Translations under genes and position numbers: made by a program
Part shown: positions 25,911 to 38,999 of the stretch, piece after piece
Layout: each line of letters opens with the position of its first letter
How positions within the stretch are numbered: position 1 is the first letter of the stretch
Virus record (IMG/VR): IMGVR_UViG_3300017613_000901
Location: 1-39,242 of that record
Length of the DNA: 39,242 nt
Reading direction: 5' to 3' (one strand)
From: a virus
The notes under the pieces: model-generated
Database searches by the model: none
Seen by the model: the letters and a program-made list of their open reading frames with translations, nothing else
What the model was told of the DNA's origin: nothing

Positions 25911-25918
25911 GAAATCGC

Positions 25919-25947
25919 TTGACAGATGATGTGTTCATGAGTATACT
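25919..25947 (+). promoter_or_regulatory. Near-consensus sigma70 promoter
   Basis: TTGACA at 25919-25924, an exact 17-nt spacer, then TATACT at 25942-25947. Transcription should start near 25954 and run into the early-type array. It begins 8 nt after the last late gene stops, at the switch from structural/lysis to small early genes, which fits a strong early promoter read by the host polymerase. Confidence 0.82.
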
Positions 25948-25979
25948 ATAAGTAACAGTACGAAGCGGAGAACACATCA
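25927..25979. repeat. Inverted repeat bracketing the promoter -10 and start site
   Basis: TGATGTGTTC (25927-25936) and its perfect complement GAACACATCA (25970-25979), separated by 33 nt. The left arm lies in the -35/-10 spacer and the right arm about 20 nt past the expected start. Possible repressor half-sites; alternatively a hairpin in read-through RNA from upstream. Confidence 0.6.
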
Positions 25980-25982
25980 AAT

Positions 25983-26080
25983 GGCGACTCGGATGCGTTT
26001 TTTTTATTGCATATTTTTAAAAGAGCCGGAAACTTACACCTGAGAAATCGGGGATGAGTCGCCCCGGCTCTATTTATTTT
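25983..26080 (+). promoter_or_regulatory. Structured leader RNA with pseudoknot-like pairing and terminator-like end
   Basis: In the leader of the 25919 promoter, GGCGACTC (25983-25990) is the exact complement of GAGTCGCC (26056-26063), and AGAGCCGG (26022-26029) the exact complement of CCGGCTCT (26064-26071). The order a-b-a'-b' with a' and b' directly abutting is a pseudoknot or a pair of alternative stems. A third option, CGGGG (26049-26053) with CCCCG (26062-26066), competes with both. The b-b' stem is followed by ATTTATTTT, so it could terminate. The first gene (26093) follows at once. This looks like a transcription attenuator or riboswitch-like switch. Confidence 0.65.
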
Positions 26081-26092
26081 AGGGGGTTAAAT

Positions 26093-26224
26093 ATGGGCGA
26101 AAGAATTGATGAAATACTTGACAGGATTAGAGAGGATTCTAAGACAGAAAGATTAACAATTAAATGGATTCTTATTTTGGTATTTGTATTTTTAATGGTT
26201 CATTTATTATTGTTTTTGTTATGA
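26093..26224 (+). CDS. Small single-pass membrane protein
   Basis: A 43-residue ORF with AGGGGG upstream. The N-terminus is charged and helical (IDEILDRIREDSK) and the C-terminus one long hydrophobic helix (WILILVFVFLMVHLLLFLL) ending at the stop. It is the first gene after the structured leader. It could act at the host membrane early in infection, e.g. in superinfection exclusion; this is only a guess from position and topology. Confidence 0.62.
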   Translation: MGERIDEILDRIREDSKTERLTIKWILILVFVFLMVHLLLFLL

Positions 26225-30843: not shown

Positions 30844-31010
30844 ATATAAAAATAGAGTTGGATAATCCCAAGTATTGTAATGGATGTCTTTTAATGAATA
30901 TTGATGCTATTTATCATATACGTTATTATATGTTAGGGTTTTTTAAACCTTACAAATATAAGATTCCAACTCCAAGACCACAGAAATGTATCGAGGAGAA
31001 TGGAGAGTGA
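30840..31010 (+). CDS. Small Cys-containing hypothetical protein
   Basis: A 56-residue ORF, again joined by ATGA to its neighbour. It has KYCNGCLLMN near the N-terminus and a late Cys50, with a Pro/Tyr-rich C-terminus ending NGE. The stop overlaps the GTG start of the next gene. No family recognised, though CNGC-type openings of this sort recur in phage small proteins. Confidence 0.52.
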   Translation: MNIKIELDNPKYCNGCLLMNIDAIYHIRYYMLGFFKPYKYKIPTPRPQKCIEENGE

Positions 31011-31609
31011 AGAATATACCGGATAAGATTTATTTGCAGATTGAAGAAGATGAAATGATAGAAGATTTTCATAAATTACTTCATTCTGATCGTGGGATTG
31101 AAATCACATGGAGTGAAACAAGAATAAATAAAAGCGATATCGTCTATTATAGACGACGGTCTAAGAAAGGAGCTTTTATGAATCAAAAAATTAGAAGTGT
31201 GTATGATAATTGTGAAAAAGTGGCTTGGACAAAGGTCTTTAAAGCAGGATATATTCTTCAAAAAGAATTTATTAAACTGTGCCCAGATGGTAAGGGTATT
31301 TGGATGACAGTAGCCTATAATCATAATGGAGATTATATAGGTAATAGTAAGAAAGCATATATACTCTGTAAAAAAAGAGGTATTATACCTGAACTAATAT
31401 CAAAAAGACATAAAACTTGTTCTATCGGTTATTGTGAAAAAGAAAGAAAATGGTATGGATGGAGTCATAGAGCAATTTATGGGTTTGGTATTGGACATAG
31501 AGTTAAAAAAGGAGATTGCTCCAGTGAAAGGATAGCTGTTGGATTTAAAATAAAGAATTTACGAGATGCAAAAAAGGTTGCTATAGCTATGGCTGAATCA
31601 GTTTCTTAA
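31007..31609 (+). CDS. Two-part hypothetical protein with an internal start
   Basis: A 200-residue product from the GTG at 31007, preceded by GAGGAG and overlapping the previous TGA. Residues 1-50 (IPDKIYLQIEEDE, EITWSETRINKSDIVYYR) are a very common small phage domain that normally stands alone. Residues 60-200 include SIGYCEKERKWYGWSHRAI, another widespread phage ORFan. Between them lies a perfect internal site, AAAGGAG at 31166-31172 with ATG at 31178. The gene could be a fusion of two proteins or make two products from one frame. Last gene before the structured non-coding segment. Confidence 0.6.
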   Translation: MKNIPDKIYLQIEEDEMIEDFHKLLHSDRGIEITWSETRINKSDIVYYRRRSKKGAFMNQKIRSVYDNCEKVAWTKVFKAGYILQKEFIKLCPDGKGIWMTVAYNHNGDYIGNSKKAYILCKKRGIIPELISKRHKTCSIGYCEKERKWYGWSHRAIYGFGIGHRVKKGDCSSERIAVGFKIKNLRDAKKVAIAMAESVS

Positions 31610-31717
31610 TTAAATCTAAAATAGATTTATTACATAATGTCAAATAAAAAAAGTTATATAAAATATAGGTGATATGGGATTTTAATTAAAGATAAACTAA
31701 ATTTAATCAAATAAAAC

Positions 31718-31820
31718 GGGCAGAGTGGCGTTCTGACGAAAACGCAACAAATAGTGGAATTCCGAAATCCGTAAGTATAAGGCTTTAAAGCGGAATCAGG
31801 TACAAACCCTGTCTCTGCCC
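31718..31820 (+). ncRNA. Candidate multibranched structured RNA
   Basis: A closed 103-nt unit. P1 is GGGCAGAG (31718-31725) with CTCTGCCC (31813-31820), 8 perfect bp. Inside it P2 is GCGTT/AACGC (31728-31732, 31741-31745, loop CTGACGAA), P3 is ATTCCG/CGGAAT (31759-31764, 31791-31796) and P4 is CAGG/CCTG (31797-31800, 31808-31811, 7-nt loop), abutting P3. The result is a four-way junction in a gene-free gap, more GC-rich than its surroundings. It is tRNA-like in outline but lacks a tRNA D-arm, T-loop and U8. No known class recognised. Confidence 0.6.
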
Positions 31821-31856
31821 ATTGTGTCCCATGAAATAAGAAATGTCGGACACAAT
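31821..31856 (+). repeat. Perfect 9-bp hairpin directly after the structured RNA
   Basis: ATTGTGTCC (31821-31829) and GGACACAAT (31848-31856), loop of 18 nt, immediately adjacent to the 3' end of the preceding folded element. No U-run follows, so it is more likely part of the same RNA or a protein-binding dyad than a terminator. Confidence 0.6.
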
Positions 31857-31957
31857 AGATGACAAAAATAATGATAAAATAACGTCAAGATCGACGATAA
31901 AATAGGTGACAATATTGATGACAATATTAATGACAAAAAGGGGGAGTGATGACAAAG
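31857..31957 (+). repeat. Degenerate TGACAA-type tandem repeats
   Basis: About six copies of a GATGACAAAAT-like unit (variants TGATAAAAT, CGATAAAAT, TGACAATAT) spaced 10-20 nt apart in an AT-rich stretch and running into the start of the 31949 gene. The pattern suggests iteron-like binding sites or a repeated leader. Confidence 0.5.
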
Positions 31958-33812: not shown

Positions 33813-34022
33813 ATGAGCATAAAATCTATGATCTTGGTTATCTGGATTATTATCTTGTCTATTGTAGTAGTGCAAAATAATGCGAAATTGCGGGAAATGA
33901 ATCAGGAATTGACTGAAATAAGGCAATGTGTCATTGGAATTACCAATGTGTCCCTTATCATGAAAGATATATTATTGTTACAGCATGATGATGATATGTA
34001 TTATATGGTCAAGGGGGAGTGA
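33813..34022 (+). CDS. Small single-pass membrane protein
   Basis: A 69-residue protein starting with the repeated MSIKSM leader. A membrane helix (ILVIWIIILSIVVVQ) is followed by a coiled-coil-like segment (NAKLREMNQELTEIRQ) and an acidic tail ending KGE. Layout resembles phage Rz-like or small membrane accessory proteins, but the context is early genes, so function stays open. The stop overlaps the nucleotidyltransferase start. Confidence 0.58.
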   Translation: MSIKSMILVIWIIILSIVVVQNNAKLREMNQELTEIRQCVIGITNVSLIMKDILLLQHDDDMYYMVKGE

Positions 34023-34801
34023 TGATTCCAAAAGATATTTTACATAGAGATAAGGGATTAAGTGAATGGAATATAGTTTCGGCTTATAGAGGCTCTATTT
34101 CTCACGGAATGTATATGCCTAATAAAAATGATAATTCTATTGATGATAAAGATATAATGTCTATCTGTATACCACCAATCGATTATTATTTTGGTCTTAA
34201 ACATTACCATAATAGGGGAACAATAGAGATTAAGCAAAACGAATGGGATATTGTTATTTATGAGTTTAAAAAAGCTATACAGTTATTGAAAAAAGGTAAT
34301 CCAAATATATTGAGCATATTATGGCTCAATGAAGAAGATTATATTCATCAAACTGAATCATTTATAACTTTGATTGATAATAAATCATTGTTTATAGGCA
34401 AACATATATATCATAGTTTTATCGGATATGCTAAAGGACAGTTATATAAAATGACTCATTTTAAAAAATATGATGGATACATGGGTAATAAACGTAAACG
34501 ATTAGTCGATAAATATGGATACGACACAAAAAATGCTTCTCATTTAATAAGACTTTTAAGAATGGGGATAGAGTTTTTAAACGAAGGAAAATTATATATA
34601 AAAAGATATGATGCTTGTGAATTATTAGAGATTAAAAAGGGAGAATGGGAATTGAAAAAGGTTGAAGAAGAAGCTCAACGATTGTTTAAAATAGCAGAAT
34701 TAAGTTATGTCCATTCTAAGCTACCAGATAATTGCGATGAAAATGGAATCAATAAGATTTGTATAAAAATATTGAAAGACAGATTTATAAAGGGGGAGTG
34801 A
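34022..34801 (+). CDS. YcgL-like predicted nucleotidyltransferase
   Basis: A 259-residue protein. RGSISHGMYMP (Gly24-Ser25) followed by SIDDKDIMSI (Asp42, Asp44) matches the GS...D-x-D nucleotide/metal motif of the polymerase-beta-type nucleotidyltransferase superfamily, YcgL/COG3541 branch. The C-terminal helical part (HLIRLLRMGIEFLNEGKLYI, then ELLEIKKGEW) is typical of that branch. It probably transfers a nucleoside monophosphate to an unknown protein or nucleic-acid substrate. AAGGGGGAGTG sets the start. Confidence 0.72.
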   Translation: MIPKDILHRDKGLSEWNIVSAYRGSISHGMYMPNKNDNSIDDKDIMSICIPPIDYYFGLKHYHNRGTIEIKQNEWDIVIYEFKKAIQLLKKGNPNILSILWLNEEDYIHQTESFITLIDNKSLFIGKHIYHSFIGYAKGQLYKMTHFKKYDGYMGNKRKRLVDKYGYDTKNASHLIRLLRMGIEFLNEGKLYIKRYDACELLEIKKGEWELKKVEEEAQRLFKIAELSYVHSKLPDNCDENGINKICIKILKDRFIKGE

Positions 34802-38236: not shown

Positions 38237-38281
38237 CTTTATATACTTCTATATTGCATAGATAATATATAGTTAAAATAG

Positions 38282-38498: not shown

Positions 38499-38999
38499 TC
38501 AAGCCTCCTTTTTCAATAGTTCAATACCATAATTTAGTATTTTTAATCTCATTTTTTTACGTACAGAAACAGCACAAGCCATAGCAGCAGCAGCAGCAGT
38601 AAAAGCAGCATAAGCAGAAGCCGCCGCCGCCACATTATCATCATCATTATATGTGAAAACGTCATCAGCTGCGGAAACAGCCGCCTTTTTGTTTTCTACT
38701 GACGGATCGGTAATACACTTTTTAGCAGCTTCTATAGCTTTTCTCGGTCTATCATCATTAGGATATCGTTTTTCATAAATATCAATAACTTGTTCAGCTG
38801 CGAACACCGCATAGCTAACACATTGCTTATAATTCATACAACGAACTATCAACCAGTTTGCCCATTCTAACTTATCCTTTTTAATTAAGATATCTAATGC
38901 TTCTAATGGAGATAATTTCTGTTTTATCTCTTTTTCAAATTCTTTAAGTGCTTCTTTACAAATACATTTTTCTTTCAACCATTCTAATGTTATTTTCAT
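38499..38999 (-). CDS. Alanine-rich Imm5-like protein
   Basis: A 166-residue minus-strand protein with AAGGAGCG upstream. LEWANWLIVRCM, YAVFAAEQVIDIYEKRYPND and DRPRKAIEAAKKCI match a family annotated as putative immunity protein (Imm5-like), widespread in phages and bacterial polymorphic-toxin loci. The C-terminal third is a poly-Ala helical array encoded by GCA/GCC triplet runs (nt 38590-38640). In phages of this sort the function is not proven. Paired with the zinc-ribbon gene and a cut gene upstream. Confidence 0.68.
   Translation of the reverse strand: MKITLEWLKEKCICKEALKEFEKEIKQKLSPLEALDILIKKDKLEWANWLIVRCMNYKQCVSYAVFAAEQVIDIYEKRYPNDDRPRKAIEAAKKCITDPSVENKKAAVSAADDVFTYNDDDNVAAAASAYAAFTAAAAAMACAVSVRKKMRLKILNYGIELLKKEA

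Follow-up and report, generated by a model that had tools for sequence, protein, structure and literature searches.

The tRNA-like domain of tmRNA keeps an acceptor stem and a T arm, with a different helix in the place of the anticodon arm. The tRNA-like structures of plant viruses occupy the 3' terminus of RNA genomes, and many of them end in CCA. These plant-virus structures have been reviewed (PMC5723415). Irregular tRNA-like sequences of the 8/4 type occur in bacteria, and some of them could not function in E. coli translation (PMC7609411); for the allo-tRNA-like 8/4 sequences this review cites Mukai et al. 2017. Phage tRNAs act as counter-defence factors (PMC11555353, PMC10264068). These tRNAs decode, and altering the anticodon abolished the rescue by a phage tRNA (PMC11555353).

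We analysed the 39,242 bases of the IMG/VR virus record IMGVR_UViG_3300017613_000901 (the window). A candidate irregular tRNA-like RNA was found on the plus strand at positions 31718-31821. Of the readings considered, the most likely is that of an irregular tRNA-like RNA (a processed mimic or else a tRNA relic), at modest overall confidence; that the element is a processed mimic and not a decoding tRNA is proposed tentatively. Like the allo-tRNA-like 8/4 sequences, it has an 8-bp acceptor helix, a 4-bp T stem and irregular extra features at the junction. However, allo-tRNAs carry an anticodon, whereas the element lacks both the anticodon arm and CCA, has a 1-nt spacer before the acceptor and an A at T-loop position 55, and lies in a phage operon. 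With the counter-defence tRNAs it shares a phage-encoded tRNA shape, here beside an anti-defence gene, but those tRNAs decode and the element has no usable anticodon. As in tmRNA, an acceptor and a T arm are combined with another helix in place of the anticodon arm; however, the element is about 104 nt long, contains no tag reading frame or pseudoknots, has no Rfam match and misses the canonical T loop. Finally, it resembles the plant-virus structures as a viral RNA that would mimic part of a tRNA, but it is internal to an operon of a DNA phage.

The window contains genes of a tailed phage, encoding a P22-type portal protein (Pfam PF16510), RecT, RusA, a DNA methylase and a YopX-like protein. 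Relatives of the phage, sought with the portal and RecT proteins, were absent or distant in the collections searched; the portal query gave no match in viral contigs, and its one match in phages is 23% identical. The element is surrounded by a run of short plus-strand genes. As the initial annotation had it, the interval is gene-free: no gap of the early gene array exceeds that at 31610-31945 (336 nt); the remaining gaps range from -25 to 108 nt, and a listed gap of 238 nt holds an ORF. The gene directly upstream encodes a homologue of the Thoeris inhibitor Tad6 (E 8e-42 in Pfam, ORF 30986-31606). Its frame opens at 30986, but this listed start is probably too early, since the coverage of the Pfam match and the ribosome-binding-like sequence AAGAAAGGAGC suggest a start at 31178. 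The protein read from 31178 has an aligned identity of 58% to the protein of L121, the locus of the closest viral Tad6 relative, and of 50% to a protein of phage NCTB. The element is absent from L121. Two further genes of the window were observed in passing: a nucleotidyltransferase of the RlaP family, which is of the RNA-repair type (34019-34801, 2.2 kb downstream of the element; PF10127, 8e-16; phrog_388), and a homologue of Imm5-like immunity proteins on the minus strand (38499-38999; PF21805, 3e-7).

Coordinates of the features of the element, its surroundings and the tRNA-like sequences of other phage loci
Feature	Locus	Positions	Strand	Basis
Tad6 (type I Thoeris inhibitor) homologue, directly upstream of the element	window	31178-31609	+	PF25188
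AT-rich leader of the noncoding gap	window	31610-31717	+	15% GC
P1, 5' strand, acceptor-like GGGCAGAG; pairs with 31813-31820	window	31718-31725	+	pair probability 0.86-1.0
UG linker, corresponding to tRNA positions 8-9	window	31726-31727	+	sequence
P2, D-arm-like hairpin GCGTT-CTGACGAA-AACGC (31728-31732/31741-31745), loop without GG	window	31728-31745	+	pair probability 0.77-0.95
22-nt linker with the sole anticodon-loop-like heptamer, TTCCGAA (31760-31766)	window	31746-31767	+	
P3 hairpin TCCGTAAGT-ATAAG-GCTT-TAAA-GCGGA	window	31768-31794	+	RNA MFE
P4, T-arm-like CAGG-TACAAAC-CCTG (31797-31800/31808-31811)	window	31797-31811	+	ensemble and tRNA descriptor
Single U between T arm and acceptor (8/4 with linker, or 8/5 with U-U mismatch)	window	31812	+	sequence
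P1, 3' strand CTCTGCCC; next base A (31821) at the discriminator position, no CCA after it	window	31813-31820	+	
Perfect 9-bp hairpin ATTGTGTCC-N18-GGACACAAT, 18-nt loop, starting at the next base after P1, no U tract	window	31821-31856	+	
Five degenerate 12-bp repeats starting TGACAA/TGATAA	window	31860, 31872, 31907, 31919, 31931 (31860-31942)	+	repeat family and periodicity read from sequence
Clean 8/4 cloverleaf, canonical T loop TTCAATT, long stem at the anticodon position	L163	1347-1428	-	
8-bp acceptor and 5-bp T arm TTCGATT, non-tRNA middle	L169	11054-11153		
Irregular tRNA-like, CCA at end	L196	5703-5796		
Resembles tRNA-Leu, hairpin inserted in the D loop	L235	479-588		
Irregular tRNA-like, CCA at end	L249	3316-3414		

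Folding predictions support a structure dominated by P1-P4 (Table). P1 consists of eight uninterrupted Watson-Crick pairs, closes 31718-31820 and encloses three hairpins; the closed helix, its three internal stems and the 9-bp hairpin that follows without a gap all agree with the initial annotation. Two of the stems had also been described as abutting. This holds for an alternative P3, ATTCCG/CGGAAT (31759-31764/31791-31796), which abuts P4 and lies 1.7 kcal/mol above the RNA MFE, and a pairing similar to it is found in the MFE with DNA parameters; in the RNA MFE itself, P3 and P4 are separated by 2 nt. The 139-nt stretch including the hairpin folds at -43.6 kcal/mol (z -4.8), and none of 200 shuffles folds as well. 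For the 104-nt element alone the values are -32.1 kcal/mol and z -3.3, with one of 200 shuffles; a stable fold is predicted for the minus strand too (z -3.5). The element had been reported to be both more structured and more GC-rich than the region around it. The GC content is indeed 47%, against 15% upstream and 29% downstream. However, a fold scan of the whole window gave comparable or lower z-scores at other, untuned places, including coding DNA, so that folding energy alone does not distinguish the element. The case for it is made by the gene-free position, the GC island and the layout.

The competition within P3 could mean that the element is a structured RNA unrelated to tRNA. It would then act either as a small RNA or in cis, as an element in the leader of the downstream genes encoding a 55-aa and a YopX-like protein, with the exclusive pairings TCCGT/GCGGA and ATTCCG/CGGAAT forming a switch and the following hairpin an expression platform. 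The stable fold of the stretch with its hairpin, the small energy difference between the two pairings, the position upstream of an operon segment and the lack of any matching Rfam family are consistent with this possibility. However, the hairpin has no U tract and stops short of the ribosome-binding site of the gene at 31946, and no homologue was observed upstream of other genes in the loci searched. We regard it as possible, though less probable than the tRNA-like reading.

Another explanation is a site acting at the DNA level, a cruciform and palindrome that, together with 12-bp repeats beside an AT-rich tract, would belong to a replication or protein-binding region. The noncoding gap contains both the element and the TGACAA/TGATAA direct repeats, the tract has 15% GC, the 9-bp palindrome arms are perfect and both strands fold. 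Still, this explanation is rather unlikely: no neighbouring initiator gene was recognised among the proteins scanned, the GC skew does not switch at the element, and another region is more origin-like. The latter, at approximately 38240-38262, contains two tandem DnaA-box-like sequences TGTGGATAA in a convergent intergenic region and, judging from these boxes, is a possible replication origin. No promoter above chance was found in the AT-rich leader, and no own-strand promoter or terminator above chance for the element. As neither is recognisable, the element is most simply assumed to be co-transcribed with the operon. Elsewhere in the window, at 25911-26163, the sequence TTGACA-N17-TATACT resembles a sigma-70 promoter, and behind it lies a short stretch of structured noncoding sequence that includes a T8 run, the long-range complementarity GGCGACTC/GAGTCGCC and a terminator-like hairpin AGAGCCGG/CCGGCTCT; this region is possibly a second small RNA or an attenuated leader of this phage.

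Read as a tRNA, the plus strand has the acceptor GGGCAGAG/CTCTGCCC, U8 and G9, a G10-like position, the D stem GCGU(U) and the T stem CAGG/CCUG with the loop UACAAAC. The acceptor of 7-8 bp, U8 and the D stem at +2 of canonical tRNAs are all present. In place of a TTCRA loop in an arm abutting the acceptor there is a TACAA loop on 4 bp with the 1-nt spacer. Compared with the canonical T arm CAGG-TTCAAAT-CCTG, two loop positions differ and nothing else; U54, C56, A57, A58 and the pair G53-C61 are retained, and A stands in place of U55. We wrote a descriptor of this outer half: an 8-bp acceptor, T at position 8, a D stem at +2, a 4-bp T stem with the loop T.C[AG]A, and 0-1 nt from the T arm to the acceptor, with no demand on the middle. 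Within the window it matches at one place, the element, and it has no match on the minus strand of the element. The descriptor is post hoc, being written with the element already seen; with this limitation, it matched in none of 600 dinucleotide shuffles of the window (two of 600 with a 7-bp acceptor). When the T-loop sequence is left out, the number of matching shuffles rises to 51-158 of 600. Applied to both strands of about 2.7 Mb from other loci, the descriptor found three places, all of them ARAGORN-annotated tRNAs. Thus the tRNA-like layout is supported statistically. The initial annotation had concluded that the element does not fit a tRNA; this stands for the anticodon arm and the covariance models, but not for the acceptor, U8, the D stem and the nearly abutting T arm, which are tRNA-like and rare in dinucleotide shuffles.

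Several features of a decoding tRNA are missing. The element is below threshold with default ARAGORN and with the Rfam covariance models of tRNA and tRNA-Sec. No anticodon arm (5 bp, 7-nt loop, U33) was found; the best candidate, with the loop TTCCGAA on the stem TGGAA/ATCCG, has four of five pairs, conflicts with P3 and is displaced by the extra linker. The D loop CTGACGAA lacks G18G19, the T loop lacks U55, and no CCA is encoded, the acceptor being followed by A and then TTG. CCA need not be encoded where a host enzyme adds it. Relaxed ARAGORN proposed a tRNA-Arg(CCG) with an intron, which we discarded: 2393 of 3000 shuffles (80%) also yield a "tRNA", and thus this call gives no support. There is no sign of a special codon demand for such a tRNA, CGG occurring 26 times in 6840 codons. 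A tmRNA was rejected, having no Rfam or ARAGORN match; the "tmRNA" called at relaxed thresholds is artefactual, produced when a 250-nt slice was treated as circular. As for allo-tRNAs, the missing anticodon arm leaves no cloverleaf with a readable anticodon, the third acceptor pair is G-C and not the G-U of AlaRS identity, and instead of a 12-bp acceptor/T branch there are 8 + 4 bp with the 1-nt spacer. The element contains CUGACGA and a GAAA, but no stem II joining them and no Rfam hammerhead match, and here we agree with the initial annotation, which had excluded this ribozyme.

An outer half resembling tRNA, combined with a middle and a T loop that are degenerate, would also fit a functionless relic, that is, a phage tRNA gene that has lost its anticodon arm and CCA, and irregular tRNA genes do occur in phage genomes. 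However, a decaying gene is not expected to retain eight uninterrupted Watson-Crick pairs in P1, five in P2 and four in P4, and here the stems are intact although the consensus of the D loop and the T loop is lost. We regard a functionless relic as unlikely.

No relatives of the element were found. Rfam searches at gathering and permissive thresholds gave chance matches alone, and no family, ribozymes and riboswitches included, scored above gathering. BLAST searches of phages and plasmids gave no homologue, and none was seen among the matches listed in five exact-pattern scans of viral and genome contigs (T arm, D hairpin, acceptor variants); the matches checked among them lack the surrounding helices and look like chance. 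A covariance model built on the element (R1) gives 136 bits on the element itself. Over 88 loci (80 Tad6 loci and RecT-related ones) it found the window and nothing else, and nothing over 904 genomes and records, mostly of three phyla, which were a guess at the host. The pattern scans need exact matches, the genomes were not chosen by host, and very near records may be missing from the collections, so this absence is not proof. The element is an orphan in the collections searched, and the membership tests did not show it to belong to any family. The initial annotation had suggested an undescribed class, to be given up if no homologues with covarying stems were found by a covariance search or if a known RNA family matched. 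The search found none in these collections, and without homologues there is no covariation to speak for a class. No Rfam family matched, and the description as a structured-RNA candidate is supported, as one outside all Rfam families; an undescribed class is not supported.

The lack of homologues, the similar or lower z-scores in other windows of the contig and the frequency in shuffles of cloverleaf layouts without the T-loop motif speak for chance folding, in a piece of intergenic DNA that happens to be richer in GC. However, the fold of the 139-nt stretch is not equalled in its shuffles, and a GC island closed by 8/8 Watson-Crick pairs in the largest gap of a densely packed array would be unexpected. 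Of the explanations considered, chance folding is the least probable.

A second descriptor, with the outer half and a canonical T loop and no demand on the D stem, revealed tRNA-like sequences missed by ARAGORN in six other phage loci (L163, L169, L192, L196, L235, L249). A further match in L202 is perhaps due to chance; 0-3 matches are expected per shuffle of all loci. Rfam recognised none of the four sequences run (L163, L169, L196, L235). The one in L169 follows a Tad6 homologue of the same strand at a distance of about 700 nt. Since the sequences in these six loci escape ARAGORN, the blind spot of the finder appears to be real.

Returning to the tRNA-like reading, we infer the transcription of the element, its processing and its role as a mimic or decoy. 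The element would be transcribed as a segment of the early mRNA of the operon, flanked by the Tad6 anti-defence gene and the following cistron. The acceptor-like helix, the D arm and the T arm would surround a non-decoding middle hairpin, and the coaxial stack of the acceptor and T arm could be recognised by the host tRNA-processing enzymes RNase P and RNase Z. Cleavage would free the element or punctuate the operon, and the freed RNA may act as a tRNA mimic or as a decoy for tRNA-directed proteins. The more specific scenario, in which an anticodon-less mimic excised from the operon by host tRNA-processing enzymes serves as a decoy against a host defence that targets tRNAs, while a protein encoded beside it inhibits Thoeris, is quite unlikely on present grounds. 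Phage counter-defence tRNAs known so far are decoding tRNAs; if true, an anticodon-less tRNA mimic would add an RNA decoy strategy and a group of tRNA-like genes missed by standard finders. Even if the element proves to be a relic, the blind spot for tRNA-like genes would be cheap to survey.
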